Shown here piece after piece: positions 344-21,027 of a DNA stretch of 22,839 bases. Position numbers and translations under genes: made by a program. How positions within the stretch are numbered: the first letter of the stretch is position 1; each line of letters starts with the position of its first letter. The stretch is from positions 1-22,839 of the IMG/VR virus record IMGVR_UViG_3300032293_001349, one strand, 5' to 3'. Source of the stretch: a virus. The notes below the pieces were generated by a model. The model was given only the letters and a program-made list of their open reading frames with translations. It was not told the DNA's origin and ran no database searches.

Positions 344-353
344 AAAAAAACGG
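344..353 (+). repeat. A7-CGG motif, copy 1 (intergenic)
   Basis: A7 CGG ending 10 nt before the ATG at 364. It is preceded by CCG, so CCG-A7-CGG could form a tiny hairpin; the copy at 12624 has the same preceding CCACCG. Confidence 0.8.
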
Positions 354-363
354 GATATATAAA

Positions 364-759
364 ATGAGTAGAAAAGTAATAGCAATAGACTTTGATGGAA
401 CTCTTACTCATCTACAAGATAACTATCATAATATGGAAATACATGAATTAAGACCTAATGAAACAATTATCAATTATGTAAGAGCATTGCATAGTGAGTA
501 TCATTTCATTGTGATCTTTACTGCTAGATTATCTCACTATAGGGAAGAGATTGCAGCATACTTAAATTTCCATAAGATACCTTTTGATCTTATTCATACA
601 GAGAAATTAAGGTTTGATGTGTTAATTGATGATAGAACTCTACACCCTAGCTTGATTGAGGCATTTGCTAATGATACTCACTATCAACTTGTGGATAAGA
701 TTAGACTAGAAACATTATCTCTAAACCTTAATCTAAGTGATGTAAATAAAAATGAATGA
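364..759 (+). CDS. HAD-superfamily phosphatase
   Basis: A 131-residue protein with the full set of haloacid dehalogenase motifs. Motif I is DFDGTLT (nucleophile D9, acid/base D11), motif II is the Thr in FTAR (T53), the conserved Lys is probably K81, and motif III is DVLIDD (D89, D90). There is no obvious cap domain, so this is a minimal HAD fold, as in phosphatases acting on macromolecules or small sugar or nucleotide phosphates. The substrate cannot be read from sequence. It lies in the same polycistron as folE, a glycosyltransferase, a methyltransferase, queC and dpdA, so a role in processing a modified nucleotide or sugar phosphate is plausible but inferred. Its last 8 nt overlap the next gene. 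The start is preceded by GGGATATATAAA rather than a good Shine-Dalgarno. Confidence 0.85.
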   Translation: MSRKVIAIDFDGTLTHLQDNYHNMEIHELRPNETIINYVRALHSEYHFIVIFTARLSHYREEIAAYLNFHKIPFDLIHTEKLRFDVLIDDRTLHPSLIEAFANDTHYQLVDKIRLETLSLNLNLSDVNKNE

Positions 760-1150
760 GAAGAAAAAGACAGATGAAGTTCAATTTGAATATGATATTA
801 AAGAACTTGAATTCTATTGGGATTTACTTATGGAAACATATCTTTCTATTCATTCTAGATTGAATTACCAAAGAGAAAAAACACCATATGATTTAAATAG
901 CCTTATGATGACTATCAACTCAGCTACAAATTATTTACTTGGTGAAATCTCTTATAAGGATAAAGAAGATGAAATCTATGTATGTAAGCATTGTAGAAAG
1001 CTATATATAGACCAATTCCCTTGCTATGAACGAAGAAAGAATAATCCATCACTTCTACTTAAATGTGAGAAATCTGATCAACCTATAGATAAAGATACTG
1101 ACTTTAGCGACTATCTTGATTATGCAAAAAACGGAAAGTTTAAAAAATAA
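752..1150 (+). CDS. Unknown protein with a four-Cys putative zinc site
   Basis: A 132-residue protein that I do not recognise. It begins with a charged, helix-prone N-terminal half and then has CKHC at residues 78-81, followed by C91 and C105 in a basic stretch. That spacing could hold a zinc ion, although it matches no ribbon I can name. It is translationally coupled on both sides: the ATG overlaps the end of the HAD gene by 8 nt, and its TAA shares a base with the next ATG (TAATG). A second ATG at 756 is in another frame. The last codons contain an A6-CGG motif (read as KNG). Its place in the modification cassette suggests an accessory role there; nothing in the sequence shows an activity. 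Confidence 0.75.
   Translation: MNEKKKTDEVQFEYDIKELEFYWDLLMETYLSIHSRLNYQREKTPYDLNSLMMTINSATNYLLGEISYKDKEDEIYVCKHCRKLYIDQFPCYERRKNNPSLLLKCEKSDQPIDKDTDFSDYLDYAKNGKFKK
1126..1134 (+). repeat. A6-CGG motif, copy 2 (in gene, KNG frame)
   Basis: Lies in the last codons of the Cys-rich unknown gene and 15 nt before the glycosyltransferase ATG at 1150. Confidence 0.8.
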
Positions 1151-2262
1151 TGTTAAAAATATGCTATATCCAAAGACCTGATTACCAAATAGAACTATCT
1201 GGTCCATATATTAAAAGACAAGCATACTATAAAATGCTAGATAGCTTATCTCTACTTACAATCATTAAACTAGAAGAAACAGATTATAAAGTACCTAATT
1301 GTGTTAAGCCCGATTTTCTTGATATTACATATTACCAACAAGTGTTAGATTTACGACTTGAACAATATGACTTAGTATTTAATGAGAGATACACATTACT
1401 ACCTATACTTGATCAAATTGGTGTAAGACATGTATTTCTACCACATATGACTTGGGAATGTAATGATGGATTTGCCCATGACTTAGAGAAATATGCACCT
1501 TTTAGCGATATTGTTATTTGTGAAACTTCTCTTATTAAGGGTATGTTTATTAGATTTACTAAGAATTGCTTTGTATTACCAAATCCCAACACTATTAAAG
1601 AGTTTAGATATAATCATACTTTAAGTGATGTAAATAATAATGTCATTATGGTAGGTAGAGATGATGATGTTAAACAAATGTATTTAGGTATAGATGCATT
1701 CAATAATGCTAGATTACCTTGTAAATTGGATATTTATTCATCTATCCCTTTAAGTAAAAAAACGGAAAGTAAAATAAATCCTAAAACAACAAGAGTACAT
1801 ATCGGCAAACCAACAAACTATGATAGATCAAGTATATTACTACATACATCTATCCATGAAACAGCTTGTATTACTATTCAAGAAGCAATCTCTAATGGAC
1901 TTACATTGGTTATCCCTAGAGAATTTGGGTATGATCACTATGTAGAGAATGAATATACATTTAAATTTAATAGATCAAATATCTACTCTAAACAGGTTAA
2001 ACTGATTATTGATACTCTTAACTATGCAAATATGATGCAGACTACAGATAAATCAGCACAATTAGATTTCCACAATAAACATACTATGAGTGTAATTTGT
2101 AGACTACTTAAAGGCATACTTGATCAAATCAAAATACTTTTAGATGAACAAGCTAGAGATAAACACCTTGATTGTGATACTAGCTTAAAACTAACACAAT
2201 TGATCTATAGGGAACTAAAAGAAGATAACAAGATAAAACTTGATAAAAAAACGGAACAGTAA
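1150..2262 (+). CDS. GT-B fold glycosyltransferase-like protein
   Basis: A 370-residue protein laid out like a two-domain GT-B (GT4-like) enzyme. The N-terminal half ends in VLPNPNTIKEF (residues 142-152), which corresponds to the family's 'PNG' linker. The C-terminal half begins VIMVGRDDD (165-173) and has a stretch at 232-256 (LHTSIHETACITIQEAISNG) equivalent to the nucleotide-sugar site 'EGFGLPxxEAMACG'; E235-E245 would fall at the sugar-phosphate-binding Glu positions. The match is by pattern only and is divergent. The donor and acceptor are unknown. Position between a HAD phosphatase and a methyltransferase in a folE-queC-dpdA cassette makes DNA-base or nucleotide glycosylation a reasonable guess; modifying a surface glycan is the alternative. 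The start ATG overlaps the previous stop. Two A7-CGG motifs are inside, one encoding the final KKTEQ. Confidence 0.7.
   Translation: MLKICYIQRPDYQIELSGPYIKRQAYYKMLDSLSLLTIIKLEETDYKVPNCVKPDFLDITYYQQVLDLRLEQYDLVFNERYTLLPILDQIGVRHVFLPHMTWECNDGFAHDLEKYAPFSDIVICETSLIKGMFIRFTKNCFVLPNPNTIKEFRYNHTLSDVNNNVIMVGRDDDVKQMYLGIDAFNNARLPCKLDIYSSIPLSKKTESKINPKTTRVHIGKPTNYDRSSILLHTSIHETACITIQEAISNGLTLVIPREFGYDHYVENEYTFKFNRSNIYSKQVKLIIDTLNYANMMQTTDKSAQLDFHNKHTMSVICRLLKGILDQIKILLDEQARDKHLDCDTSLKLTQLIYRELKEDNKIKLDKKTEQ
1756..1765 (+). repeat. A7-CGG motif, copy 3 (in gene, KKTE frame)
   Basis: Located mid-gene in the GT-B gene, with no start codon of a real gene nearby. Confidence 0.8.
2245..2254 (+). repeat. 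A7-CGG motif, copy 4 (in gene, KKTE frame)
   Basis: Encodes the last residues of the GT-B protein (KKTEQ-stop) and ends 10 nt before the methyltransferase ATG at 2265. Confidence 0.8.
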
Positions 2263-2264
2263 AA

Positions 2265-2891
2265 ATGTTTTTAGACAAATACAAATCAAATATAGATACA
2301 AATATCCATAGATCACTATACAACAAAGATGATAATGGTAGATCAATGGAAAATGAAGATCATATTAGATTAGCAGTAAATCACTTTATCCGTAAATGTA
2401 GACCAGGTGTTAGAGCTAGATTTTTTGATATTGGTGCTGATTATGGATTTGCTATGCATATTGCTAAGACAAGATTTATAGATGTTTATGGTATTGAGCC
2501 ATACCCACATATTGATCCCATAGACCCTATGATTAAAATTGATCAAGATACAATAGAAACACTTGATTTTGCCCAATATCCTAGTGGTGAGTATCATGTA
2601 TTTTTAAACCATGTTTTAGAACATTTGGAAAATCCCATAGGTGCATTGAATAAGTTAAGTGCATTCACAGATTGCCAATATCTCTTTATCTCTACACCTA
2701 ATGGATTATGTCAAGATATGGATTGGGTATTCCCAAGAGGGCATTTACATTCATTTATTCCTGAATTTTTTTCTATTGTAGTGCCTAGAGAAACACGATT
2801 TAAACTTATGGAACAACAAATTGTGTGCTTTAGAAACGGTTGGGAAGAAATTTGGAATGTATACCAAAGAAAATCAACAACGGAAGAATAA
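2265..2891 (+). CDS. Class I SAM-dependent methyltransferase
   Basis: A 208-residue protein with a Rossmann-type methyltransferase core. Motif I is FFDIGADYGFAM (53-64, the SAM-binding DxGxxxG). An acidic residue follows at the end of strand 2 (GIEPY, E78), then the Methyltransf_23-type HVLEHLENP at 116-124 and an ISTPNG strand at 142-147. This pattern is typical of small-molecule and sugar or lipid methylases (UbiG-like). The DPPY or PC motifs of common DNA methylases are absent, so it is unlikely to methylate adenine or cytosine directly in DNA. It could act on a modified base precursor or on the sugar added by the neighbouring glycosyltransferase; this is inference. It starts 2 nt after the previous gene's stop, and its TAA lies at 2889-2891, right before the next ATG. 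Confidence 0.85.
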   Translation: MFLDKYKSNIDTNIHRSLYNKDDNGRSMENEDHIRLAVNHFIRKCRPGVRARFFDIGADYGFAMHIAKTRFIDVYGIEPYPHIDPIDPMIKIDQDTIETLDFAQYPSGEYHVFLNHVLEHLENPIGALNKLSAFTDCQYLFISTPNGLCQDMDWVFPRGHLHSFIPEFFSIVVPRETRFKLMEQQIVCFRNGWEEIWNVYQRKSTTEE

Positions 2892-2892
2892 G

Positions 2893-3201
2893 ATGAAAAA
2901 CACTTTTGATAACATTGCTAGCGATCTTGCTAGATTGCTTACTGCTAAGAATGATGCTTATGGTAATGCATTTGATAAGACTACTCAAATCTTAACATTA
3001 CTATATCCCAAAGGCATTCCCTTATCTAGCTATAAAGATGTACATGTCATTATTAGAATGCTTGATAAACTTTCAAGGATTGCACAAAACAATGATCCAT
3101 TTGGTGAGTCACCATACCAAGACATTGCAGGATATTCATTACTTGCTTTAAAATCACACCTAGACACTCAAGAAAAAACGGAAGTTAAAAAAGATGAATA
3201 A
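2893..3201 (+). CDS. Small protein resembling nucleotide modification associated domain 1 (DUF1599-like)
   Basis: A 102-residue, mostly helical protein. KNDAYGNAFD (19-28), the helix VIIRMLDKLSRI (52-63) and ESPYQDIAGYSLLAL (72-86) fit the pattern of the small family formerly called DUF1599, which recurs next to phage base-modification and nucleotide genes and is related in look to all-alpha NTP pyrophosphohydrolases. I chose the ATG at 2893, not an upstream alternative start at 2821, because 2821 would lie deep in the methyltransferase gene and the AACGGAAGAATAAG just before 2893 offers a GGAAG ribosome site. A dNTP-handling role (for example removing normal dNTPs, or making room for a modified one) is possible. 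The C-terminus carries an A6-CGG motif read as EKTE and overlaps the queC start by 8 nt. Confidence 0.7.
   Translation: MKNTFDNIASDLARLLTAKNDAYGNAFDKTTQILTLLYPKGIPLSSYKDVHVIIRMLDKLSRIAQNNDPFGESPYQDIAGYSLLALKSHLDTQEKTEVKKDE
3173..3181 (+). repeat. A6-CGG motif, copy 5 (in gene, KTE frame)
   Basis: In the C-terminal codons of the DUF1599-like gene, 12 nt before the queC ATG. A near-copy with CTG in place of CGG (same KTEVKK peptide) occurs around 22166 in the terminal nuclease gene. Confidence 0.8.
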
Positions 3202-3970
3202 ATACCAATTAGCAATTATGATGAGTGGTGGACTAGATAGCTTTGTTGCCTATCACTATGCACAGAAAGAACTAAACATTCCTAAAGATCAAATTGTATG
3301 TGTATGGGTAAATTTGGGACAACCATATAACCATAAAGAAAAACAAGCAATAGATCACCTACAACAATCTCACTCTTTAGATAATGTAAGAATAATCACT
3401 TGTGATATATTAAGAGCTGAATGGGATAATCTACCACAGGTTGAAGAGCCTAAACAAATCATACCTGCACGAAATCTACTACTTTCTAGCATAGGTGCAA
3501 TGTATGGTAATACTGTATGGATTTGTGCCTTAGAAAGTGAAATGCATGATAAAAATCCACTACAATTAGATAAGAGTCATAAATTCTACCAACTAGCTAC
3601 AGATACTCTTACTGCTACACATGGCATTCCTATTAAGGTTGAAACACCATTCTCTAAGATGTCTAAAACTGATTTGATTGCATGGTCAATAAAAAACGGA
3701 ATATCAAAAGAAGAACTTTTAAGTACATCTACCTGCTATGATGAAAATATTAGAAATTGTGGAAGATGTGGAACTTGCTTTAAGAGAAAGATTGGATTTA
3801 TTCTTAATGACATAGAAGAACATTATGAAAATGATCCATTTACAAGTGATTTTGCACAGCCATATCTTAGAAAACTACTTGATGCACAAGCTAAACAAGA
3901 TTATTCTCACTATACACAAAAACGAGTAGAAGAAACTATATTAGCTATGTCTAAAAACAAAAAGGAATAA
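3194..3970 (+). CDS. queC: 7-cyano-7-deazaguanine (preQ0) synthase
   Basis: A 258-residue protein with the ATP-pyrophosphatase loop SGGLDS (11-16), the QueC-typical IPARN (90-94), and the C-terminal zinc site C181, C189, C192, C195 (STCY...CGRCGTC) followed by a basic residue. QueC converts 7-carboxy-7-deazaguanine to preQ0 using ATP and ammonia. It is slightly longer than the usual ~230 residues, and the mid-protein stretch ALESEMHDKNPLQLDKS differs from the usual YPDCR segment, so substrate details may vary. It is directly followed, after 3 nt, by the transglycosylase gene, the arrangement expected for preQ0 made for DNA. I see no amidotransferase fused to it, unlike the Gat-QueC of some Campylobacter phages. 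Start chosen at 3194 because SGGLDS then lies at the normal distance from the N-terminus. Confidence 0.93.
   Translation: MNKYQLAIMMSGGLDSFVAYHYAQKELNIPKDQIVCVWVNLGQPYNHKEKQAIDHLQQSHSLDNVRIITCDILRAEWDNLPQVEEPKQIIPARNLLLSSIGAMYGNTVWICALESEMHDKNPLQLDKSHKFYQLATDTLTATHGIPIKVETPFSKMSKTDLIAWSIKNGISKEELLSTSTCYDENIRNCGRCGTCFKRKIGFILNDIEEHYENDPFTSDFAQPYLRKLLDAQAKQDYSHYTQKRVEETILAMSKNKKE
3691..3699 (+). repeat. A6-CGG motif, copy 6 (in gene, KNG frame)
   Basis: Mid-queC, read as I-K-N-G-I; no real start codon nearby. Confidence 0.8.
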
Positions 3971-3973
3971 CAA

Positions 3974-5593
3974 ATGAAAGTCGTTCTTGCAGGTGCACAA
4001 TCTAAAAATGCTATGGAAGATTTACTATGGGCAGGCACACCCAATGTACTTGTTTCATATGAATATCTTAAAGATCAAAAAAATAAGGGTATAGAAGTCC
4101 TTAAAACATTCAAATCAGCAGAACGATGGATACTTGTTGACTCTGGTGCATTTACATTTAAGGTAAAATATAAATTTTTAAACTCAGCTTATTTTGATAC
4201 AGACACATTTCCACCTAAACCTAAAGCATCTTTTGAACAACAATCTGTAGATCAAATTGTAGAATACTTTAAAGAACAACAAATACCATTTGATCCTAGA
4301 ACACAATGGGAACAAGCTAGACAATATGCAATTCAAGATGTAACAAACTACTTTTTAGAACACTTAGATTGGATTAAACAAGCAGCATCTTATGCCAATG
4401 CATTTGCAGAACTAGATGTTGAATGGCTTATAGGTGATACAATTTGGCAATGGCGAGATCAATATAAAAAGGTGCTAGATGAAAACAATCCTGATGCAGA
4501 ACTCATTTGTACACCACACATTTATAATTCAGATGAAGATTTAAAAAACATTGCTACCAAAATCACTAGATATATTGGATCTGACTTTTTAAATGCTAGA
4601 AAAGATAGTAGGCTATGGACTACACAAATGCCTATCTTAAAGGAACATCGTATTAGGGTACATGGTTGGGCTCTCACAGGTCATATCTCTATGAGAGAGC
4701 TACCGTTCTATAGCATTGACTCTACAACATGGCTTGGTGGTGCTAAATATGGGACAACATATCACTATAGGGGAAATTGGGATATTGTTACTTATGACCA
4801 CACAAGAAAGGTAGAAAATAGACAACAATTTAAGGGATTTTGTAAGGAACATGAAATCGACTTTGATCAATTTATAGCTGATCATATCCCTACTGTAAAT
4901 CGTTTTAATGCTAAGATGTGGACACTCTGTGCGATAGACTTGGAACGAGATGTATCTAGAGCATATTGGTTATCTGAAGAAGAATTACAAAATGCAATCT
5001 CTACACAAAGATCAGAATTTGGACTTGATAAACCTTTAGAAGTTAGACATAGACTTGATTTGATTTCACCTGAAGAGGCAAGATTACAATCTATCAATTA
5101 TACAAGAATGTGTAATGCTTGTTTCCTAAACACAAAGTGCCCTGTATTTAAAAAAGATGCAACCTGCTCTATTGATACAGGTATATCTATAGATAATAAA
5201 GATGCTATGATGCAATTACTAAATAAAGTGATTGAATTACAAGGTCAACGAGTAATGTTCGGTGTATTTGCAGAAAGAATACAAGGTGGTGTGATTGATC
5301 CTATGGTTGGTAAGGAAATGTCATTATTATTCAAATTAGGTGAACAAGCTAAAGCAATTGAACAAGAAAACACTACTGCTACAATCTCTTTCTCTAGTGG
5401 TGAAAAGAAACCTGCAGGTGGTATCCTATCTCAACTATTTGGTGGGTATGGTAGAAATGGTGGTGGTGGATCTAAACCATCTCAATCTGAGAAAGTGATT
5501 GATGTTCAACCTATAGAACAATTAGAATTCCAAGAATTAAAACAAATTGAAAATCAAGTAGTTATAAGATCAAAACCTGACAGTGAAAAATAA
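3974..5593 (+). CDS. dpdA: DpdA-like 7-deazaguanine DNA transglycosylase with extra C-terminal Cys-rich domain
   Basis: A 539-residue protein. The N-terminal ~340 residues look like the TGT-related DpdA family: VDSGAF (55-60, equivalent to TDSGGF of tRNA-guanine transglycosylase), AELDVEW (146-151), RVHGWALTG (228-236) and LPFYSIDSTTWLGGAKYG (243-260). D56 and D249 are candidates for the catalytic pair. Known DpdA enzymes exchange guanine in DNA for preQ0 or a relative. From 380 there is a C-x2-C-x5-C-x8-C cluster (C380, C383, C389, C398), then a helical stretch with QRVMFGVFAERIQGG (425-439) and a Gly-rich tail (~475-498). This second part is not the TGT zinc site and resembles a Cys-plus-helix module I associate with other phage proteins; that is recollection, not a search. 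Start has AAGGA upstream. Confidence 0.88.
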   Translation: MKVVLAGAQSKNAMEDLLWAGTPNVLVSYEYLKDQKNKGIEVLKTFKSAERWILVDSGAFTFKVKYKFLNSAYFDTDTFPPKPKASFEQQSVDQIVEYFKEQQIPFDPRTQWEQARQYAIQDVTNYFLEHLDWIKQAASYANAFAELDVEWLIGDTIWQWRDQYKKVLDENNPDAELICTPHIYNSDEDLKNIATKITRYIGSDFLNARKDSRLWTTQMPILKEHRIRVHGWALTGHISMRELPFYSIDSTTWLGGAKYGTTYHYRGNWDIVTYDHTRKVENRQQFKGFCKEHEIDFDQFIADHIPTVNRFNAKMWTLCAIDLERDVSRAYWLSEEELQNAISTQRSEFGLDKPLEVRHRLDLISPEEARLQSINYTRMCNACFLNTKCPVFKKDATCSIDTGISIDNKDAMMQLLNKVIELQGQRVMFGVFAERIQGGVIDPMVGKEMSLLFKLGEQAKAIEQENTTATISFSSGEKKPAGGILSQLFGGYGRNGGGGSKPSQSEKVIDVQPIEQLEFQELKQIENQVVIRSKPDSEK

Positions 5594-5701
5594 ATAATTG
5601 ACCTTTAGGTGTTATTCATCTAGCTTATTGCAAATTTTCCTATTGCTAGGTATCTATCAAAAAACGGGATATTAAAAAACCAAACAACAAGAGAAGGTAA
5701 A
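5594..5701 (+). other. Leader region before nrdJ
   Basis: A 108-nt intergenic stretch. TTGACC near 5600 could be a -35, but no good -10 follows at 17 nt, so I do not call a promoter. It contains a CTAGC/GCTAG inverted pair around 5619-5650 without a T tract, an A6-CGG motif, and GAGAAGG as a good ribosome site 4 nt before the nrdJ ATG. Confidence 0.5.
5659..5667 (+). repeat. A6-CGG motif, copy 7 (intergenic)
   Basis: Followed by GATATTAAAAAA; it ends 34 nt before the nrdJ ATG, which has its own separate Shine-Dalgarno, so this copy is not needed as a ribosome site. Confidence 0.8.
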
Positions 5702-7669
5702 ATGAAACAATCATTTACACTAGATACATCATTTGTAGAAACATATAAATCTAAAAAAGTAAGATGGGGTGGACTTGGGTATGTTGTATTTAAGAGAACA
5801 TATGCTAGATCACTTGAAAATGGAAATACAGAAGAATGGTATCAAACAATTGAACGAGTAGTTAATGGCACATACTCTCTACAGAAAAATCACTGTAAAT
5901 CTCTCAATCTCTATTGGAATGAAGAAAAATCTCAAGCATCTGCTAAAGAAATGTATGATCGTATCTTTAATTTCAAATTCCTACCACCTGGTCGTGGATT
6001 ATGGGCTATGGGTACAGATATGATCTACAAGCAAGGATCAGCATCACTCAATAATTGTGCATTTGTATCTACAGAAGATTTAGAAAGTGATCCTGTTGAG
6101 CCATTTATGTTCCTTATGGATATGGAAATGCTTGGTGTAGGTGTAGGGGCTGATACACTAGGTAAAGGTAAAATCAATGTCAACAAAAAAACGGTGGTAG
6201 AAGAAACCCATATCGTACCTGATACAAGAGAAGGTTGGGTAGAATTACTTGGTATTATTCTAAAGGCATACTTTGTTAAAGGTGCAACATATCCTAGCAC
6301 AATTGACTATTCACTCATTAGACCTGCAGGATTACCAATTAAAGGCTTTGGTGGTGTAAGTAGTGGTAAAGACCCACTTGAATTACTTGTTAAAGAGATT
6401 ACTACACTACTTGATACATTCTTAGGTGAACTAGATAGCAAGCCAATCTCATCTACAATCATTGTGGATATTTGTAATTATATTGGTAAATGTGTAGTAG
6501 CAGGTAATGTAAGAAGAACTGCTGAAATCATGTTTGGTACACCTGATGATGAAGAATTTCTTGATCTAAAAACGGACATGGAAAAACTATCTTCACATAG
6601 ATGGGCATCAAACAATTCTGTATTAGCACATGTAGGTATGGATTATACTGAAATTGCAAAACGAATTGAAATCAACGGTGAGCCAGGACTGATTTGGCTA
6701 GATAATGCTAGAACATTTGGAAGATCAAAAGATAAAAATACAGATGATTTTCGTGTTAAGGGAACAAATCCTTGTGGTGAACAATTCTTAGAGAGTTATG
6801 AATTATGTAATCTTGTAGAAACATTTCCTGCACATCATGATAGCTTAGAAGATTTTATGCTTACACTCAAGTATGCTTATCTCTATGCAAAGTCAGTAAC
6901 ACTTACACCTACACACAATGCTAGAACAAATCAAGTAATGATGAGAAATCGTAGAATTGGTTGTTCTATGTCAGGTATTGTGCAAGCAATCAATAAATTT
7001 GGATTAGATACATTTAGAACATTCTGTGATCAAGGCTATCAAAAAGTAAAAGAATATGATCGCCAATATTCTGAATGGTTGTGTATTCCTAGATCAGTAA
7101 GAATGACAACTGTAAAACCAAGTGGCACAGTATCACTACTTTGTGGGGCAACACCAGGTGTACACCAAGAGCATTCAGAGTATTATATTAGAAGAGTAAG
7201 ATTAAGCAAAAACTCACCATTGCTAGAAGTACTTACTAAAGCAGGCTACCATACAGAGCCATGTAAATACCAACCAGGAAGTATTGTTGTATCTTTTCCA
7301 ATGAAGGTAGAGAATTTTAAGAAAGCTAAAGCAGATGTAACACTATGGGAACAGGTAGCACTATGTTCATTTATGCAACAACATTGGAGCGATAATAGTG
7401 TTAGCAATACAATTACATTTACAAAGCAAGAGGCTAAAGACATTCCTATCTTGTTATCATTCTATGAAGATAAATTGAAGAGTGTATCTATGCTACCACT
7501 AAATGATCATAGCTATGAGCAAGCCCCTTATGAGTCAATTACACAAGAACAGTATTTAGAAATGATTAAACCAATTGTAGATATTGATGATGTGCTTGTT
7601 AAAGATACACATGAAGAAACAGAAAAATTCTGTGATGGTGATAAGTGTACAATCAAGTTAAACCAATAA
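5702..7669 (+). CDS. nrdJ: Class II (adenosylcobalamin-dependent) ribonucleoside-triphosphate reductase, monomeric type
   Basis: A 655-residue protein close to the monomeric Lactobacillus leichmannii-type RTPR. FLPPGRGLWAMGT (93-105) is diagnostic. Active-site residues are all present: C119 in LNNCAF, N356, C358 and E360 in NPCGEQ, and C369 in YELCNL. The 11-residue gap between C358 and C369 equals the C408-C419 spacing of the model enzyme. The C-terminus has the shuttle cysteine pair C644 and C649 (CDGDKC). It reduces ribonucleotides to deoxyribonucleotides with a cobalamin radical and needs no oxygen and no separate small subunit, which fits phage growth in a host that supplies B12. It is ~85 residues shorter than the model enzyme. 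Internal A-run/CGG motifs occur at 6185 (KKTV) and a shorter A5 version at 6568. Confidence 0.95.
   Translation: MKQSFTLDTSFVETYKSKKVRWGGLGYVVFKRTYARSLENGNTEEWYQTIERVVNGTYSLQKNHCKSLNLYWNEEKSQASAKEMYDRIFNFKFLPPGRGLWAMGTDMIYKQGSASLNNCAFVSTEDLESDPVEPFMFLMDMEMLGVGVGADTLGKGKINVNKKTVVEETHIVPDTREGWVELLGIILKAYFVKGATYPSTIDYSLIRPAGLPIKGFGGVSSGKDPLELLVKEITTLLDTFLGELDSKPISSTIIVDICNYIGKCVVAGNVRRTAEIMFGTPDDEEFLDLKTDMEKLSSHRWASNNSVLAHVGMDYTEIAKRIEINGEPGLIWLDNARTFGRSKDKNTDDFRVKGTNPCGEQFLESYELCNLVETFPAHHDSLEDFMLTLKYAYLYAKSVTLTPTHNARTNQVMMRNRRIGCSMSGIVQAINKFGLDTFRTFCDQGYQKVKEYDRQYSEWLCIPRSVRMTTVKPSGTVSLLCGATPGVHQEHSEYYIRRVRLSKNSPLLEVLTKAGYHTEPCKYQPGSIVVSFPMKVENFKKAKADVTLWEQVALCSFMQQHWSDNSVSNTITFTKQEAKDIPILLSFYEDKLKSVSMLPLNDHSYEQAPYESITQEQYLEMIKPIVDIDDVLVKDTHEETEKFCDGDKCTIKLNQ
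6185..6194 (+). repeat. A7-CGG motif, copy 8 (in gene, KKTV frame)
   Basis: Mid-nrdJ; followed by TGGTAG, so it lacks the usual A/G after CGG. Confidence 0.75.
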
Positions 7670-7690
7670 TTTAAACCAATATCGTATAGT

Positions 7691-7700
7691 AAAAAAACGG
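7691..7700 (+). repeat. A7-CGG motif, copy 9 (intergenic)
   Basis: Lies 21 nt after the nrdJ stop. The next + strand gene starts 577 nt away at 8277, so it cannot be a ribosome site for any annotated gene. Confidence 0.8.
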
Positions 7701-7799
7701 GATTTTTAAAAAAGATATACTTAGAACATATACAAAGAAATGACACTATACATTATTATATATATATGCAAATTTTCACTTTTTTAAACCGTCCTGTAA

Positions 7800-8051
7800 T
7801 CACAAAGACTTTTCTCTTAGTTCATGTAATTCATGATTAAGCCTTGAAATCAAATGATCAATATGACTAAGGTATTCTTCTCTAATAGGCTTGTTCTTTA
7901 GCATTGTAGTAGCAATATCCTTGATCAATTTAAGACTTTCAATATCAAGATTAATCTCATCTAGTAAAGGTACATCTCTAAAGATTGTGCCATCATTCTT
8001 ACAATTACAGGTATATAAACCATCGTGGGTATGGGTATTTAGATTTAACAT
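7800..8051 (-). CDS. Small unknown protein, the only minus-strand gene
   Basis: An 83-residue acidic/helical protein that I do not recognise, reading from 8051 to a stop at 7800. It begins MLNLNTHTHDGLYTCNCKND, with a His/Cys-rich start that might bind metal, then a helix-rich stretch ending SRLNHELHELREKSL. I chose the ATG at 8051 over the in-frame ATG at 8078 because AAAGGA lies 9 nt upstream of 8051, while 8078 has no ribosome site and lies only 3 nt from the promoter -10. Coding is supported by an extended -10 (TGTTATAAT) upstream, the ribosome site, and the absence of any + strand gene here. It is divergent from the 8277 gene and convergent with nrdJ. Confidence 0.7.
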   Translation of the reverse strand: MLNLNTHTHDGLYTCNCKNDGTIFRDVPLLDEINLDIESLKLIKDIATTMLKNKPIREEYLSHIDHLISRLNHELHELREKSL

Positions 8052-8081
8052 AGCATGATTTCCTTTCTTTATGCTCATTAC

Positions 8082-8178: not shown

Positions 8179-8207
8179 TTTACACTATTCACTAAGATTG
8201 CTATTCT
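8179..8207 (+). promoter_or_regulatory. Sigma-70-type promoter upstream of the 8277 gene
   Basis: TTTACA (8179-8184), a 17-nt spacer, and TATTCT (8202-8207) preceded by TGC, an extended -10. The same TGCTATTCT core is found at 9539 and 16019. It would give a ~62-nt leader to the ATG at 8277. Confidence 0.6.
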
Positions 8208-9280: not shown

Positions 9281-9290
9281 AAAAAAACGG
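9281..9290 (+). repeat. A7-CGG motif, copy 10 (intergenic)
   Basis: Five nt after the 8664 gene's stop and 356 nt from the next gene; followed by AACATTAAAAAC. Not near any start codon of a supported gene. Confidence 0.8.
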
Positions 9291-9518
9291 AACATTAAAA
9301 ACACTGTTAAAAACAAAGACACTAAACACCTTAGATTATATTTAAGGCAATAAAGATCAATGATAATTTATGATATAGGTTATCACAAAAACATACTTGG
9401 TATATGGTCAAGGTATCTTTTCCATTCGGTTTAAATACTTGTATATTAAATGGTTTGTAGATTATAAACTATTGAAATATATGATGATTTATAGATACAA
9501 AATATTTTGTAAAAGATA

Positions 9519-11027: not shown

Positions 11028-11963
11028 ATGAAAAAAATTGATTTATTTAATGGTGGATATGTAGAATTATTGCACCAATATGGAACTGAACTTGATGTAA
11101 TCAATGTAGCTAAGGTGTCATTTGATAATTCAGCAAATGAATGGCAATCACCATCTATGGATAAGCTATTTAATTATTTATGGCAACATGGTCATACATC
11201 ACCATTTAGACATGTATTTTTATCATTTAGAGTACATGCACCCATATCCATTGTAAGACAGTGGGAAAAATATCGTGTAGGATCACCAATAGATACACCA
11301 AGCAATGAAGTAAGTGGTCGTTATGTTGAATTAAAGGAAGAATTTTTTATCCCTAGCGAATGGCGAATACAATCTAAGAGTAATAAGCAAGGCTCATTTG
11401 GATCACTACCTGAAGAATTACAGCAGCAGATAGATGAAAAAACCAATGATCACTATAAGAATTGTCATGATTATTATGAAGAATTACTACAATCAGGTGT
11501 AGCTAAAGAACAAGCAAGATTTGTATTACCTAATGGATTATACACTACATTTATATGGACACCATCTTTACAAGCATTGATGCATTTCCTTGAGCAAAGA
11601 TTATCTCATGATGCCCAAAAGGAATTACAGGAATATGCCAAAGCAGTATATGAAATTGCTAAAACAATCTATCCTAGATCAATGAATGTATTGTTAGATA
11701 AGATTGTGCCTAAGCACCACCATGTGATGACAATTCAAGAACAAAGTGTAGAAGAATTAAACCTTATCCCTATCCTATATGAAGGCTACCAACTCTATGT
11801 AGAAAAAACGGAACTTGAAAAAATGGGTAAGAAAGAAACAAATAAGATAAGCCATATCATATATAAAATAACTAAAGAAGATATAACTGCATATTGCTTA
11901 GGTAAAGACTTAAATCGCTTTAAAGAACATGGTTGGAAATTGGTAGAACAATCAAGCACCTAA
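11028..11963 (+). CDS. thyX: Flavin-dependent thymidylate synthase, divergent signature
   Basis: A 311-residue ThyX. HTSPFRHVFLSFRVHAPISIVRQW (56-79) and NEVSGRY (93-99) are clear family blocks, followed by ARFVLPNGLYTTFIWT and the NFLxxR-equivalent HFLEQRLSHDAQKELQEYA. ThyX makes dTMP from dUMP with FAD and methylene-tetrahydrofolate. The normal signature RHRxxSxxxxSxR is altered: KYR stands in place of RHR, and about five residues (PIDTP) are inserted before SNEVSGRY. It also has a ~65-residue C-terminal extension with an in-frame A6-CGG motif. I chose the ATG at 11028; an in-frame TTG at 10971 would leave almost no leader after the promoter and has no ribosome site. Together with nrdJ it supplies dNTPs. 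Confidence 0.88.
   Translation: MKKIDLFNGGYVELLHQYGTELDVINVAKVSFDNSANEWQSPSMDKLFNYLWQHGHTSPFRHVFLSFRVHAPISIVRQWEKYRVGSPIDTPSNEVSGRYVELKEEFFIPSEWRIQSKSNKQGSFGSLPEELQQQIDEKTNDHYKNCHDYYEELLQSGVAKEQARFVLPNGLYTTFIWTPSLQALMHFLEQRLSHDAQKELQEYAKAVYEIAKTIYPRSMNVLLDKIVPKHHHVMTIQEQSVEELNLIPILYEGYQLYVEKTELEKMGKKETNKISHIIYKITKEDITAYCLGKDLNRFKEHGWKLVEQSST
11803..11811 (+). repeat. A6-CGG motif, copy 11 (in gene, KTE frame)
   Basis: In the C-terminal extension of ThyX, followed by AACTTGAAAAAATG; that in-frame ATG is internal and no gene starts there. Confidence 0.8.
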
Positions 11964-12567: not shown

Positions 12568-12596
12568 TTTACATTTATCATATAGAATGATATACT
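12568..12596 (+). promoter_or_regulatory. Promoter for the DNA polymerase gene
   Basis: TTTACA (12568-12573), 17 nt, TATACT (12591-12596) with TGA in front as an extended -10. It lies directly after the terminator and ~45 nt before the start codon. Confidence 0.65.
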
Positions 12597-12623: not shown

Positions 12624-12632
12624 AAAAAACGG
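12624..12632 (+). repeat. A6-CGG motif, copy 12 (intergenic)
   Basis: Here the motif continues GGAGG, making a true Shine-Dalgarno for the GTG start at 12646. It is preceded by CCACCG, as at 344. Confidence 0.85.
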
Positions 12633-12645
12633 AGGATTACAAAAG

Positions 12646-14638: not shown

Positions 14639-15949
14639 ATGAATACAACAGGCATGATATGTATAGCAAAAAACGGAATGTTAAAAAAAGATTTAGATAA
14701 GATCAAAAAAGACTTAACATTCATAGACTATACAGATGAACAATTTCCACAATATAAGCTATATATAGATACAAGTGATTTTATTTATATACCTAGAGGA
14801 TATGATGATTTTAAATACTACCAAGTAGAAAGCATAGACATACCAAACACTATGCAAGAAAAAACGGAATTTAAAATCACCCTTAGAGAATATCAAAATA
14901 AAGCAGTAGATACACTATATGAAAATGTAATCGCTAAAGGTGGTGCAACTCTTATAGGTGGTTGTGGTACAGGTAAAACAATTATGGGAATTGCAACTGC
15001 TATGAGAATAAAACATAAAACCTGTATCTTAGTGCATAAAGAGTTTTTGATTGAACAATGGATTGAACGAATAGAAATGTCATGTTCAAATTGTAAGATA
15101 GGAATATGGCAACAAGATAAAATACCTGATGATGATTGTGATTTTGTAATAGCAATGGTGCAATCCCTATATGCTAGAACATATCCAGGTGAATTATATG
15201 ATAGATTTGATTTGGTAATTACAGATGAAGTACATAGGTTTTCTGCACCTACATGGCAAAACATTATTAGTAATTTTAAAGCTAGATATAGAATAGGACT
15301 TACTGCCACACCCAATAGAAGAGATGGATTACAAGAGATATTTTATAATCATATAGGTAAATCTGTATATGAAATTCAAGGCACACTATTACAACCTACA
15401 ATCTTTAGGTATGAAACTAAGATAGGGATAGCAATCAACAAATACACTGATTTTAAAGGTGGATTAAACAATGCTAAACTACTTACAATCCTAGCAGAAA
15501 ATAAAGATAGAAATACACAGATAGCAACACTACTGACCAATGCAAAAAAACGGAATAGGAAAATACTATTATTATCTGATAGAATAACAATGCTAGATAA
15601 CTTACTAGATATACTTACAGGTGGTATAGGTGAAACAGAAGATGTAAGGAAATATGTAGGTGGATTATCTAGTAATGAGCGAGAACAAGCAAGTAAAGCT
15701 AAAATCATACTTGCCACTTATGGTATGGCACAAGAAGGACTTGATATTCCTGATATTGATACACTATTTCTAGCTACACCTAAAGCAGATGTTGTGCAAG
15801 CAGTAGGTAGAATATTAAGACCACATCCTAATAAACTTGAGCCTGTTGTTTTAGATATTGTGGATAATACACCACTTACTCATGCTTTATATAGAAAGAG
15901 AAAGAATATGTATGAAGCAAACAATTATACCATTAGGGATTATAAATAA
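14639..15949 (+). CDS. SF2 DNA/RNA helicase, UvsW/RecG-RAD25-like
   Basis: A 436-residue superfamily 2 helicase. The order is a short N-terminal domain, LREYQNKAV (Q-like motif, 82-90), Walker A GGCGTGKT (107-114), DEVH box (196-199), GLTATPNR (motif III, ~222-229), ATYGMAQEGLDIPDID (motif V) and QAVGRILRP (motif VI). In T4, the related UvsW unwinds R-loops and branched DNA to switch origins off and remodel forks; that job is inferred here. Neighbours are the polymerase upstream and recombination genes downstream. The start has an excellent AAGGAG. Three motif copies are inside: 14668 (KNG), 14859 (KTE) and 15544 (KRN), the only gene with all three reading frames. Confidence 0.93.
   Translation: MNTTGMICIAKNGMLKKDLDKIKKDLTFIDYTDEQFPQYKLYIDTSDFIYIPRGYDDFKYYQVESIDIPNTMQEKTEFKITLREYQNKAVDTLYENVIAKGGATLIGGCGTGKTIMGIATAMRIKHKTCILVHKEFLIEQWIERIEMSCSNCKIGIWQQDKIPDDDCDFVIAMVQSLYARTYPGELYDRFDLVITDEVHRFSAPTWQNIISNFKARYRIGLTATPNRRDGLQEIFYNHIGKSVYEIQGTLLQPTIFRYETKIGIAINKYTDFKGGLNNAKLLTILAENKDRNTQIATLLTNAKKRNRKILLLSDRITMLDNLLDILTGGIGETEDVRKYVGGLSSNEREQASKAKIILATYGMAQEGLDIPDIDTLFLATPKADVVQAVGRILRPHPNKLEPVVLDIVDNTPLTHALYRKRKNMYEANNYTIRDYK
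14668..14676 (+). repeat. A6-CGG motif, copy 13 (in gene, KNG frame)
   Basis: About 30 nt after the helicase start codon, followed by AATGTTAAAAAAAG. The ATG it contains is in frame, but the AAGGAG-preceded start at 14639 is better. Confidence 0.8.
14859..14867 (+). repeat. A6-CGG motif, copy 14 (in gene, KTE frame)
   Basis: In the helicase linker just before its Q-like motif; followed by AATTTAAAATC. Confidence 0.8.
15544..15553 (+). repeat. A7-CGG motif, copy 15 (in gene, KRN frame)
   Basis: Read as A-K-K-R-N in the second RecA-like domain of the helicase, the only copy in this frame. Confidence 0.8.
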
Positions 15950-15964: not shown

Positions 15965-15974
15965 AAAAAAACGG
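15965..15974 (+). repeat. A7-CGG motif, copy 16 (intergenic)
   Basis: Sixteen nt after the helicase stop and upstream of the next promoter; a 6-codon ATG frame across it (MKKTEQ) is not credible as a gene. Confidence 0.8.
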
Positions 15975-15998
15975 AACAATAAAAATAATACTTAGATA

Positions 15999-16074: not shown

Positions 16075-16083
16075 AAAAAACGG
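16075..16083 (+). repeat. A6-CGG motif, copy 17 (intergenic)
   Basis: Follows a CAACAACAA stretch; CGGAG lies 7-8 nt before the ATG at 16092, so here it doubles as a ribosome site. Confidence 0.8.
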
Positions 16084-16091
16084 AGTGTCAA

Positions 16092-16553
16092 ATGGCAGAA
16101 CTTATTCTAGCTAAAGACTTACCTGCACCATCTCAATTGGTTGCAAGATTACTACAAATTAAGGTTCTCAAGGATGAACTTGATCTATTAGAAGAACAAA
16201 CACGACAACAAATCAAAGCAGACACAAATGCTAAGAAAATCCAAACAAGTGCAGGCGAAGTCAGTATTGTAGAAAGCCAACGACTTACATTCAACAATGA
16301 TCTAGTATTGGCAATTGCTACTGCAAAAGGTATTGATCCAAATGTGTTAGGTGATTTCTCTTTCAAAGCTGATGAAAAGAAAGTCCAAGCAAGTATTTCT
16401 GCAGGTTTAATTACCAATGAAGAATTGCAAGGTGCAGTCAAAATCAGCACATTTGATCGCTTTACTATCAAGCCTACCAATGATGTAAAAGATGTACTTG
16501 CCGTTAAAGCTAAGACATCACTACTTTTACTTGCAGATGGTGATTTAAAGTAA
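16092..16553 (+). CDS. Unknown protein (153 aa)
   Basis: A 153-residue protein without a recognised family. Residues ~14-45 (QLVARLLQIKVLKDELDLLEEQTRQQIKAD) are a likely coiled coil or long helix, and the rest alternates short helices with strands (VSIVESQRLTF; DEKKVQASISAG; VKISTFDRFTIKP). It uses more GTC, CTC and CGC codons than the modification cassette and has a private promoter and a GGAG ribosome site, suggesting good expression. The next gene starts 56 nt later with another A7-CGG copy, so the two are probably co-transcribed. Given its neighbours, a replication or recombination accessory role is conceivable but unsupported. Confidence 0.75.
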   Translation: MAELILAKDLPAPSQLVARLLQIKVLKDELDLLEEQTRQQIKADTNAKKIQTSAGEVSIVESQRLTFNNDLVLAIATAKGIDPNVLGDFSFKADEKKVQASISAGLITNEELQGAVKISTFDRFTIKPTNDVKDVLAVKAKTSLLLLADGDLK

Positions 16554-16587
16554 TCATGTTTGTTCTTCTACCTTTTAGCAATCCCTT

Positions 16588-16597
16588 AAAAAAACGG
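16588..16597 (+). repeat. A7-CGG motif, copy 18 (intergenic)
   Basis: CGGAG is 10 nt before the ATG at 16609; acts as a plausible ribosome site. Confidence 0.8.
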
Positions 16598-16608
16598 AGT
16601 ATACCAAA

Positions 16609-17307
16609 ATGGTAGAAGAAAAACCAATCCAACCAATCCAACCACAGACAGTTAAAAATCCTGTGTTCTTTGAAGATGATGCACCTATTACTTCTATAGA
16701 AAAAGATAGCATTAAGAAGAAACAAAATTCTGCTTATTTTAGATCCTACTATTTGAAGAATAAAGAAAAAATCCTACAAAGAAGAAAACATAGATATTTA
16801 AATGACCCTGATTATAGAGAAATCATTCAAAGGTCTAAAGAGTTTGCTAAACTAAGAAACCTTGAAGTATCAAATAATCTAGAGTCTACTACTATTTCCC
16901 CTGTAGCAACAGGTAACCCACTTGCAAATAGAGCTAAGAAACTCAAAATCAAATCACCTACTTTAGGTGAAGCAGTTGTCAAATTCTTAACGATTGGGCA
17001 ACTTGCAGAGGCTATTGGCATTGCTGTGGCTACTTGTAGAAAATGGGAACGAATGAATATTTTACCCCCTAGCAATTATCGAAATGAAGGTGGTCATAGA
17101 TTATATTCTATTGATCAAGCACAACTTGCTACTGATATTTATCATAAGCACCTAAATAAATTTGCAGATAAATGTGAAAAATGGCGATTGACAGAAGATT
17201 TTCAAAAAGAACTCTTTGACTCTTGGCAATCTTTACATATGGGGGTAAATCCAAATCGCTTTAAGCACACTGATCTATCTAAGCTAACCGATGCTTTAGA
17301 TGAATAA
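16609..17307 (+). CDS. MerR-type helix-turn-helix DNA-binding protein
   Basis: A 232-residue protein. Residues ~127-172 match the MerR DNA-binding pattern: FLTIGQLAEAIGIAVATCRKWERMNILPP followed by GGHRLYSIDQ, the wing-and-helix ending (GxRxY) of that family. The N-terminal ~90 residues are very basic and helical (AYFRSYYLKNKEKILQRRKHRYLNDPDYR), reminiscent of the YYxKNKEKI-type DNA-contacting helices found in some phage nucleases. There is no metal-sensing or dimerisation coil of classic MerR regulators, so it may be a phage regulator, or an excisionase- or origin-binding-like protein. It starts MVEEKPIQPIQPQ (a small IQPIQP repeat). Its end overlaps a possible start at 17300, but the next gene more likely begins at 17333. 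Confidence 0.8.
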   Translation: MVEEKPIQPIQPQTVKNPVFFEDDAPITSIEKDSIKKKQNSAYFRSYYLKNKEKILQRRKHRYLNDPDYREIIQRSKEFAKLRNLEVSNNLESTTISPVATGNPLANRAKKLKIKSPTLGEAVVKFLTIGQLAEAIGIAVATCRKWERMNILPPSNYRNEGGHRLYSIDQAQLATDIYHKHLNKFADKCEKWRLTEDFQKELFDSWQSLHMGVNPNRFKHTDLSKLTDALDE

Positions 17308-19327: not shown

Positions 19328-19337
19328 AAAAAAACGG
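19328..19337 (+). repeat. A7-CGG motif, copy 19 (intergenic)
   Basis: Followed by AATAGCTAAAAAAGGATTTAAA; the later AAAGGA is the more likely ribosome site for the ATG at 19360. Confidence 0.8.
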
Positions 19338-19359
19338 AATAGCTAAAAAAGGATTTAAA

Positions 19360-20319
19360 ATGATTGAATACTCAAGAAGAAATGTAGATATATCTTTAGA
19401 TAAAATCACTACTACATTTATCAGTAATCCAAGACAATCTTATGATGAAGATTATATCACATCACTTATGCAGAGTATTGCAAGTATTGGTCAACAACAA
19501 GCAGTATGTGTATATGAAATTACTAAAGGTAAATATGGACTTGTATGGGGATTTTGTAGATTTAAAGCGATAGAAGAACTATCCAAACATGGTGAAGGTG
19601 ATAATACCATTCGTGCAGATATTTTAGATCCCAAGACAAATATGGGGGATTTACTATTACTTAATTTACAAGAGAATGTTGTAAGAAAACAATTGACACC
19701 TTTAGAAGAGGCTAAGGCAATTGAATACCTACAAGATCATAAAACACAAGATGAAATTTGTGATGCTTTAGGTTGGTCAAAATCCCTATTTACACAAAGA
19801 TCAAAAATACTTAGCTATTCTGAAATCCTACAACAAGCTATTCAAGATGGATTACCTACTAGAGCAGCATCTCTTATCTCTGAATTACCAGAAGAATTAC
19901 ATGAGAAGTATATTGATATTGCAATGACTACATCTGTAGTTAAATTAAGAGAATTGATTGATGCTTATCTTAACTCTAATCAAGATGAAAGAGAGCCTGT
20001 TGATGTATCTAGCATTACACTTGATACAAATGATGAAGAAGAAGAACAAGAAGATAATGATACTGATTATATTGAGTCACCTACATTATCTAGAGCAGGT
20101 GATTTAAGGGATTTACTATTATCCTTACTATCTCAAGTTACAGATAGTGATGATCAAATTATGGCAGTTCAATCCATTGATTTTACAAGACTACTATCCG
20201 TTGATCAAGATCGCTTATTATCCGTCCTACAATTCTTAGCTAGTGATGATGATGATATTGAATATGAAGAAGTAGATGATGATGATGATGACTTTGATGA
20301 TGATGATGATGATGAGTAA
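19360..20319 (+). CDS. ParB-like protein with acidic C-terminal tail
   Basis: A 319-residue protein with a ParB/Srx-type N-terminal domain: FISNPRQSYDE (21-31), QQAVCVYE, GLVWGFCRFKAIEEL (~59-73) and NLQENVVRKQLTPLEEAKAIEYL (~107-129), followed by an HTH-like QDEICDALGWSKSLFTQR (~134-151). Residues ~208-240 and the last ~25 are nearly all Asp/Glu. Phage ParB-like proteins include CTPases, nucleases and regulators; whether this one binds CTP or cuts DNA is not decidable here. It is not obviously a partition gene, as there is no ParA nearby. The acidic tail could mimic DNA or recruit partners. The tail is coded by a GAT/GAC repeat. It has its own strong promoter, and the glycosyltransferase starts 3 nt after its stop. 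Confidence 0.8.
   Translation: MIEYSRRNVDISLDKITTTFISNPRQSYDEDYITSLMQSIASIGQQQAVCVYEITKGKYGLVWGFCRFKAIEELSKHGEGDNTIRADILDPKTNMGDLLLLNLQENVVRKQLTPLEEAKAIEYLQDHKTQDEICDALGWSKSLFTQRSKILSYSEILQQAIQDGLPTRAASLISELPEELHEKYIDIAMTTSVVKLRELIDAYLNSNQDEREPVDVSSITLDTNDEEEEQEDNDTDYIESPTLSRAGDLRDLLLSLLSQVTDSDDQIMAVQSIDFTRLLSVDQDRLLSVLQFLASDDDDIEYEEVDDDDDDFDDDDDDE
20247..20319 (+). repeat. GAT/GAC trinucleotide repeat (poly-Asp tail)
   Basis: Two stretches of consecutive GAT/GAC codons (around 20275-20290 and 20297-20316) separated by TTT, plus a shorter one at 20247-20258. Such runs can change length by slippage. Confidence 0.8.
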
Positions 20320-20322
20320 TAA

Positions 20323-21027
20323 ATGATTACGGTAGCTATTCCTGTATTTAATACTAAGCCTGCATATTTACTTGAGGCTATTCAATCAATTATATCACAA
20401 ACATATACAGAATTTGAGTTAATGATACTTAATGATGGCTCTACATATCGAGATACACTTGCATTTCTAACTATTGTTGAAACACTTGATCCTAGAATTA
20501 GGTATATTAACTTTAAACAAAATCAAGGTATTGCAAAAATAGGTAATGCAATCTTCTCTTTAGCTAAATATGATTTAATTGCAAGATTAGATAGTGATGA
20601 TATTGCACTACCTACAAGACTTGAAAAACAAGTTAAATACATGAATGAAAATCCAAATGTAGATATACTTGGAACAGGATTACACTTTTACCAATATGAT
20701 GAAAAAAACGGTTGGTATAAAGGACAATCCCAAATATTCTACCCACAAATAGACAAACAGATTGCAACTAATTCTATGTGGTTTATCCACCAACCTTGTT
20801 GTATGTTTAGGAAAAGCAAAGACCTATACTATGATGAAACTATAGAATACTTTGCGGAAGATTTTGATTTATTTATTCGTGCAATTAAACAAGGTAAGAT
20901 ACTACACAATTTAGATGATTACTTAAACCTATATCGCATACATGGTAATAGTTTATCTGCTCATCACTTTTCAAATCCTAAGCATTATGATAGAATGTTA
21001 TTACTTAGAAAAACACTGTTAGGATAA
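20323..21027 (+). CDS. GT2-type glycosyltransferase (GT-A fold)
   Basis: A 234-residue protein with the GT2 order: TVAIPVFNTKPAYLLEAIQSIISQTYTEFELMILNDGS (3-40, nucleotide-sugar site), ARLDSDDIALPTRLEKQ (~87-103; the DxD is DSDD) and a catalytic-type ED in FAEDFDLFIRAI (~183-194). The family adds sugar from a nucleotide donor in the cytoplasm. No membrane segment is present. It sits between a ParB-like gene and a DUF932-like gene in a replication block, an odd place for a surface-sugar enzyme. Options are DNA-base or host-protein glycosylation; both are speculation. Motif copy 20 lies inside (KNG). Confidence 0.88.
   Translation: MITVAIPVFNTKPAYLLEAIQSIISQTYTEFELMILNDGSTYRDTLAFLTIVETLDPRIRYINFKQNQGIAKIGNAIFSLAKYDLIARLDSDDIALPTRLEKQVKYMNENPNVDILGTGLHFYQYDEKNGWYKGQSQIFYPQIDKQIATNSMWFIHQPCCMFRKSKDLYYDETIEYFAEDFDLFIRAIKQGKILHNLDDYLNLYRIHGNSLSAHHFSNPKHYDRMLLLRKTLLG
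20702..20711 (+). repeat. A7-CGG motif, copy 20 (in gene, KNG frame)
   Basis: Inside the GT2 gene, followed by TTGG instead of A/G-A, so a weaker match after CGG. Confidence 0.7.

Follow-up and report, generated by a model that had tools for sequence, protein, structure and literature searches.

In this study we examined the window, a stretch of 22,839 bp that makes up the whole of IMG/VR virus record IMGVR_UViG_3300032293_001349, and in it a short motif that is repeated many times in one orientation around the core AAAAAACGG (A6CGG). The window, which represents part of a tailed phage genome, encodes proteins of the ribonucleotide reductase, thymidylate synthase, DNA polymerase, UvsW-/UvsX-like, ParB-like, QueC-like and queuine-transferase families. 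Most counts given below were made in a near relative, IMGVR_UViG_3300044844_000854 (104,574 bp, referred to as G001), whose DNA polymerase matched that of the window at 99% and whose aligned DNA matched it at 94.7-98.6% over three blocks. For comparison we also used another contig, G021 (54,394 bp).

A strict motif in many copies

An original prediction, made by eye from the letters of the window, listed 20 copies of the core on the + strand and none on the - strand, far above the number expected from composition. The exact search and the shuffles confirmed this: we found 20 copies on + and 0 on -, against a mean of 0.10 and a largest value of 1 in 100 dinucleotide-preserving shuffles. G001 contained 75 forward and 6 reverse copies, and AAAAAACGG was at the top of its over-represented 9-mers (0.44 expected); in G021, counted on the reversed record, there were 38 forward and 4 reverse copies. 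Thus, the statement that the motif occupies one strand only holds for the window (20:0), but it is not absolute in G001.

The full motif, derived from the 75 forward G001 sites, is about 21 nt long and reads AAAAAACGG-RR-N-D-T-W-AAAAAA, i.e. after the core come A/G, A/G, any nucleotide, any nucleotide except C, T, T/A and six A-rich positions. Offset 9 was A in 61 and G in 10 sites, offset 13 was T in 56, and offsets 15-20 were A in 57, 64, 69, 73 (position 19), 67 and 54 of the 75 sites. The motif is not palindromic, and no conservation was observed in the flanks, either 5ʹ of the core or past the tail. The continuation with G/A-A and a TAAAA tract, described at first for many window copies, proved to be real and more regular than that description. 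A tail score below 3 was found for 6 of the 75 forward copies, every one of them inside genes; these include the counterparts of window copies 6186 and 20703, which may be present by chance or be driven by the protein sequence. Variants of the core that differ in one letter mostly occurred in 0-3 copies in G001, with the exception of AAAAAATGG (12), TAAAAACGG (6) and AAAAAAAGG (4), and cores with just four or five A also occur, many of them with a tail. The G001 copies at 7687 and 7702 overlap with a shift of 15 nt, so that the tail A-run of one is the head A-run of the next.

Placement at gene junctions and ribosome-binding sites

Fifty of the 75 forward copies of G001 fell within the 12,010 intergenic bases of the 104,574 (11% of the DNA). 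A known start codon followed the CGG by 10-15 nt in 26 copies, 30 copies were at other junctions, and 19 were inside genes. Among the 30 junction copies, 20 overlapped the upstream stop codon or started no more than 25 nt past it, and the median distance was 22 nt to the upstream stop in comparison to 81 nt to the next start. On the way from the stop to the next start, these copies had a mean fractional position of 0.317 (P = 0.0005) for the 26 usable copies, the four that overlap a stop or start being left out. Six doubtful open reading frames (ORFs) on the - strand were excluded from the junction-position and the intergenic counts. One junction copy, at 88585, precedes a short ORF. Altogether, 51 of 111 junctions carried a copy, and junctions with and without it alternated more often than chance predicts, with 70 runs where 56.2 were expected (P = 0.005). 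We rejected the idea that the copies are spaced for replication, as their spacing (coefficient of variation 0.81) was almost as uneven as junction-based chance predicts (P = 0.049).

The start-codon copies differ from the others at position 11, which was G instead of A in 15 of 26 of them, in 0 of 30 junction copies and in 2 of 19 in-gene copies; the start copies therefore bend the motif to GGAG. Genes without the motif have mainly AGGA(G) at 5-9 nt and motif genes have CGGA(G) at 8-10 nt. Since the other genes use mainly AGGA(G), the C of the motif is not chosen for pairing with the anti-Shine-Dalgarno sequence. Judged by their sequence and spacing, the start-codon copies, about a third of all, double as ribosome-binding site. 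A translation-start module, one of the roles suggested originally, thus accounts for 26 of the 75 G001 copies, but the remaining 49 lie away from such starts.

Selection of the motif inside genes

To the 111 + strand coding sequences (CDS) of G001 we applied 300 codon-preserving shuffles, which gave on average 3.26 forward and 0.16 reverse copies (maxima 10 and 2), whereas 25 and 3 were observed. The same control, which the original prediction had asked for, was run on the 25 CDS of the window (19,986 bases, 1000 shuffles): they hold 11 forward and 0 reverse copies, in comparison to means of 0.82 and 0.08 (maxima 5 and 2). The choice of synonymous codons pointed in the same direction. In the context xAA-AAA-ACN-G, Thr was encoded by ACG in 13 of 14 cases (50/2080 overall), and in the context xxA-AAA-AAY-GG, Asn was encoded by AAC in 10 of 11 cases (460/1858 overall). 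In the context of the reverse in-gene copies, Ser was TCC in 3 of 3 cases (95/2099 overall), although this number is small. The core is compatible with the protein sequence at 45 forward and 12 reverse places, and it was used at 25 and 3 of them, with 1.98 and 0.08 expected.

For the comparison between strains we used aligned blocks longer than 300 bases, with a divergence of 2.5%. We found 54 shared forward copies and 7 that differed, two of the latter in a region of the window where G001 carries another allele. In the shared copies, 9 of 648 tail cells differed, in comparison to 33/1080 for the 20 nt before and 28/1566 for the 29 nt after.

Orientation of the motif

The intergenic copies of G001 were 50 forward and 3 reverse, and two of the 3 reverse copies were tail-less; over all 6 reverse copies, four bore the tail and two lacked it. 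The coding sequence of the 119 selected ORFs of G001 comprises 92,268 bases on the + strand and 2,124 on the - strand, and because nearly all genes run one way, the directions of replication and of the genes are inseparable in this genome. One full reverse copy is located 26 nt 5ʹ of the - strand gene 16473-16862. Thus, as far as it can be tested, the direction of the motif goes with the genes, as indicated by the 50 of 75 intergenic copies together with this reverse copy. Three further reverse copies are antisense inside + genes, with tail scores of 7.3-7.6 (the forward median is 7.95). One of these is kept in G021, and at one further place G001 has A5 and G021 has A6. The presence of full antisense copies inside + genes, with a fitting codon choice, favours recognition of DNA over recognition of mRNA: they would be explained by a signal at the DNA level or by antisense transcription, and an mRNA-level signal would not need them.

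Copies in the window and other features of the genome

The window copies are listed in Table 1. Comparison with the ORFs gave the same split as had been read by eye, nine intergenic and eleven in genes, and nine copies were located 8-34 nt 5ʹ of starts (about nine, at 8-40 nt, had been noted by eye).

Table 1. Copies of the motif in the window (distances in brackets are from CGG to the start codon; counterparts are G001 positions)
Feature	Position	Strand	Remarks
Motif copy, start-codon class	345..365	+	ATG at 364 (10 nt)
Motif copy, start-codon class	1126..1146	+	ATG at 1150 (15 nt); within 3ʹ end of upstream gene
Motif copy in gene 1150-2262	1757..1777	+	
Motif copy, start-codon class	2246..2266	+	ATG at 2265 (10 nt); overlaps end of upstream gene
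Motif copy, start-codon class	3173..3193	+	ATG at 3194 (12 nt); within 3ʹ end of upstream gene
Motif copy in QueC-like gene	3691..3711	+	
Motif copy, junction class	5659..5679	+	Stop codon 65 nt before; ribonucleotide reductase start 34 nt on
A6CGG without tail in ribonucleotide reductase gene	6186..6206	+	May be chance; counterpart 70008
Motif copy, junction class	7692..7712	+	22 nt past ribonucleotide reductase stop; faces convergent - ORF 7800-8078
Motif copy, junction class	9282..9302	+	Stop codon 6 nt before
Motif copy in thyX-like gene	11803..11823	+	In-frame ATG 11 nt after CGG; counterpart 75711
Motif copy, start-codon class	12624..12644	+	DNA polymerase GTG at 12646 (13 nt)
Motif copy in helicase gene	14668..14688	+	29 nt from predicted helicase start; counterpart 79174
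Motif copy in helicase gene	14859..14879	+	
Motif copy in helicase gene	15545..15565	+	
Motif copy, junction class	15966..15986	+	Helicase stop codon 16 nt before
Motif copy, start-codon class	16075..16095	+	ATG at 16092 (8 nt); not in divergent allele of G001
Motif copy, start-codon class	16589..16609	+	ATG of MerR-type helix-turn-helix gene at 16609 (11 nt)
Motif copy, junction class	19329..19349	+	ParB-like gene start 22 nt on
A6CGG without tail in glycosyltransferase gene	20703..20723	+	May be chance; counterpart 85238

G021 matches G001 at 88-98% and continues across its ends; the genome is therefore redundant or circularly permuted. The genes of G001 include those for terminase, portal, tail sheath and baseplate, and by its gene content the phage is contractile-tailed. 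Between the portal and capsid genes there is an ORF of 2,826 aa (L197:61-8541). Its last 110 residues, which we read as MuF-like, align with a short protein of relatives, and the remainder is apparently lineage-specific. A virion RNA polymerase was rejected for this protein, as it had no Pfam match, regular expressions found no catalytic motif in it, and the alignment of its C-terminus is with the short protein mentioned above. The lone - strand ORF of the window (7800-8078) is convergent with the ribonucleotide reductase gene, and its counterpart has no Pfam match. A QueC-like gene and a queuine-transferase (DpdA-like) gene are located at window 3194-5593, and genes for GTP cyclohydrolase I, a PTPS/QueD-type protein and a radical-SAM protein, which we take to be QueE, are also present (further positions L200:1555-2139, L091:12455-12892 and L201:9718-10422). 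This group is likely a set for 7-deazaguanine modification of DNA, as suggested by its family matches.

We also noticed by eye a second repeated signal, with a TTTACM-like -35, a 17-nt spacer that often contains CACTWAGAT, and a TATACT-like -10. It occurs in G001 (L091-L096) near 6,350, 75,930, 90,510, 93,540 and 100,660 and in the window at about 8179-8207 and 12568-12596, and perhaps represents phage early promoters. A scan with the sigma-70 consensus in two stretches found no more promoter-like sites than in shuffles, individual promoters being noted by eye only. Another word, TGCTTTAG, is enriched on both strands inside genes, with 25 forward and 22 reverse copies in comparison to 4.8 and 9.4 in codon shuffles; it is listed at 46 places in G001, from 3981 to 103572, and the window has 5 forward and 8 reverse copies.

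Distribution among relatives and in other DNA

Comparison of the window DNA with 50,697 phage records gave no near match. Among relatives identified by the terminase (48-64% identity), 1 of 8 loci had one copy of the core, among those identified by the capsid protein (50-63%), 4 of 32 loci had one copy, and in whole records of 18 relatives, 8 held 1-3 copies. Thus, no enrichment was found in the relatives examined. Their scarcity of the motif is partly due to composition, since their G+C content is 37-57% in comparison to 32% here. No comparable replacement word was found in eight relatives, where the strongest 8-mers reached z of at most 8.6 (27.8 here). Some of the eight have moderately repeated words of their own, and G043 (L321-L324) and G048 (L335-L338) have in common a word, built around AGTTGTTGAAAA and dispersed over both strands, with 15-17 copies of its 8-mers. 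In other viral contigs, the start-codon form was found in 73 stretches and the junction form in 18, and among the viral records counted only those of this lineage held many copies. The motif therefore looks specific to this lineage, as far as these records go. We rejected a host or cellular origin: the junction form matched 68 stretches of genome contigs, once in each, only 1 of the 68 loci had at least three A6CGG, and no host was identified. A literature search, with most subscription journals beyond its reach, found no account of this motif.

Interpretation of the motif

Any explanation has to accommodate the enrichment, the strict core and tail, the synonymous-site selection in genes, the orientation with transcription between genes and the placement at junctions, all of which are established. 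The reading that we favour, at a probability of roughly 40%, is an oriented binding site for a putative phage protein acting on transcription, by analogy to stoperators. We infer a phage protein as the ligand, its binding to double-stranded DNA and its effect on RNA polymerase. Such a protein would bind the asymmetric site of about 21 bp and act in cis on transcription; once bound, it would block or punctuate RNA polymerase moving in one direction, as stoperator repressors do, and at about a third of the sites the same letters would also serve as ribosome-binding site. The original prediction had proposed an RNA-processing or protein-binding site; protein binding has the best support, with DNA likelier than RNA as its target, in view of the three full antisense copies and the codons chosen to make them. 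The only recognised proteins that could bind DNA specifically are the MerR-type and ParB-like ones, and candidates for the ligand include these two, a SpoVS-family protein and the many unmatched ORFs. In the two stretches that were scanned, intrinsic terminator-like sites did not exceed their number in shuffles.

Several results weigh against this reading. Of the 119 ORFs, 114 were scanned (nine of them as their window counterparts, and many without a family match), and none was recognised as a repressor, integrase, sigma factor or RNA polymerase, although profile searches can miss divergent ones. Thus, no ligand can be named, nothing points to lysogeny, and we did not file the motif as a stoperator. 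Homologues of the MerR-type and ParB-like proteins occur in relatives that lack the motif (for the MerR-type, at 21-30%, with one of six rows in a different frame). The three antisense in-gene copies do not fit a strict coupling to transcription. Furthermore, the codon control was impure: without the upstream A run, Thr was still ACG in 6 of 28 cases and Asn was AAC in 4 of 4, so part of the codon effect is common to shorter A runs; A4-A5CGG variants may act as weak sites. The earlier claim that protein sequence does not explain the in-gene copies stands for their count, but their strand bias is close to what protein sequence permits (25/45 vs 3/12, Fisher P = 0.10, not significant). The 75 sites also exceed the 24 of L5 and the 34 of Bxb1 given in the cited part of the stoperator work (PMC3029335). 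Finally, a promoter or a nickase site would explain much of the pattern.

We consider it rather improbable that the motif is a translation or mRNA module, i.e. an A-tract with a weak Shine-Dalgarno sequence or the target of an RNA-binding translational regulator, with the other copies being relics or RNA-level tags. The 26 copies at ribosome-binding sites, 15 of them with GGAG, agree with such a role, as does the A-rich sequence, for which no RNA structure beyond chance was found at the 11 window sites folded (z -1.80 to 0.81); no known RNA family was found in the window at gathering score. However, no such start codon follows 49 of the 75 copies, the C in CGGA(G) does not serve the pairing, and full antisense copies lie inside + genes.

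Somewhat less probable is a phage-specific promoter for a putative phage RNA polymerase or sigma factor, in which the start-codon copies would belong to leaderless mRNAs. One compact block of 21 nt oriented with the genes, the copy 26 nt 5ʹ of the - strand gene and the near-constant distance of the ATG from the start-codon copies could be expected of a promoter. As to the position before genes, 26 copies abut a start, but the usable junction copies are nearer to the upstream stop than to the next start, and window copy 7692 faces a convergent gene; the latter two points speak against a promoter. As read by eye, a hairpin and a T-run come between G001 copy 1715 and the next gene, and several G001 copies are upstream of a separate sigma-70-like promoter. 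In addition, the GGAG of 15 start-codon copies would be pointless on a leaderless mRNA, and no phage polymerase or sigma factor was recognised in the ORFs scanned, where divergent ones can escape the profiles.

An unlikely alternative is a strand-specific nickase site of the kind found in Pseudomonas phage tf, phiKMV-like phages and T5, which the strand bias and the strictness of the motif resemble (PMC3517423). The preference for junctions, the conserved tail and the reverse copy beside a - gene are not described for tf in the cited part of that work. The core is confined to one strand in the window (20:0), and in G001 it stands at 75:6, with four tail-bearing reverse copies. More unlikely still is a polarity signal of the Chi, KOPS or replication type, as the original prediction had suggested, that would mark one strand for an enzyme of recombination, packaging or replication. 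The one-way bias across the 104-kb contig and the selection of in-gene copies are consistent with it, and the phage encodes a RusA-type resolvase besides UvsX- and UvsW-like proteins; but the placement at junctions, close to stops and over ribosome sites, speaks against it, and the only testable - gene goes with transcription. That the motif is no functional signal and simply follows from base composition, codon usage or Lys-rich proteins can practically be dismissed, as the six tail-less forward copies, all in genes, are outweighed by the shuffles, the codon controls, the synonymous-codon choice and the conserved 12-nt tail.

Returning to a protein-binding DNA site, we tentatively put forward the more specific and doubtful picture of a lytic phage, with terminator-like hairpins at no more than chance level, that would mark about half of its junctions with a protein-bound, one-way DNA punctuation of transcription, free of any link to lysogeny and with its letters reused as ribosome-binding site at a third of the copies. 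Being apparently confined to one lineage, the motif would mark a recently evolved protein-DNA system. If the ligand were found, it could reveal a novel mechanism for ending or gating transcription, and could serve as a strong, orthogonal module for DNA binding.

Comparison with known oriented phage motifs

To our knowledge, dispersed oriented motifs are known from a few actinobacterial phages, and a ligand is known for stoperators only. In L5, stoperator sites overlap with start and stop codons. As far as the cited passages go, the stoperators of cluster A mycobacteriophages (L5, Bxb1 and TipsytheTRex) are short asymmetric sites of 13 bp in many copies (24 in L5, 34 in Bxb1), mostly intergenic and oriented with transcription, and in these temperate phages they are bound by the immunity repressor (PMC3029335, PMC9283540, PMC6550527). 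The motif described here resembles them in its asymmetric dispersed copies (75 forward, 6 reverse), mainly intergenic and oriented with the genes, the exceptions being the three antisense in-gene copies. It differs in its 21 nt, its 75 copies and in that no repressor or integrase was recognised in the 114 ORFs scanned.

The Start-Associated Sequences of cluster K and EF phages are described as conserved and asymmetric, at the ribosome-binding site of many genes and mostly in one orientation (PMC3203893, PMC7302621); nearly all of them are just 5ʹ of starts in those accounts, whereas just 26 of 75 copies are so placed here. The lytic Microbacterium phages of cluster EC have, in the part cited, an asymmetric motif of 18 bp in 12 copies, intergenic and all oriented alike, which precedes starts by 21-30 bp and is located upstream of the ribosome site (PMC7302621). 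In contrast, many copies of our motif are at the ribosome site itself or just past stops, and some are in genes. In phage tf, 14 nicks in a 9-nt consensus with few near-variants are reported on the top strand only (PMC3517423). The motif is similar to the nick sites of tf, phiKMV-like phages and T5 in its strict, short and strand-biased consensus, but it has a tail and a preference for junctions, neither of which is mentioned in the cited part for the 14 tf sites (PMC3517423). Taken together, the motif is denser, stricter and longer than the known dispersed phage motifs, and it is found within genes at the cost of rare codons and on both strands.

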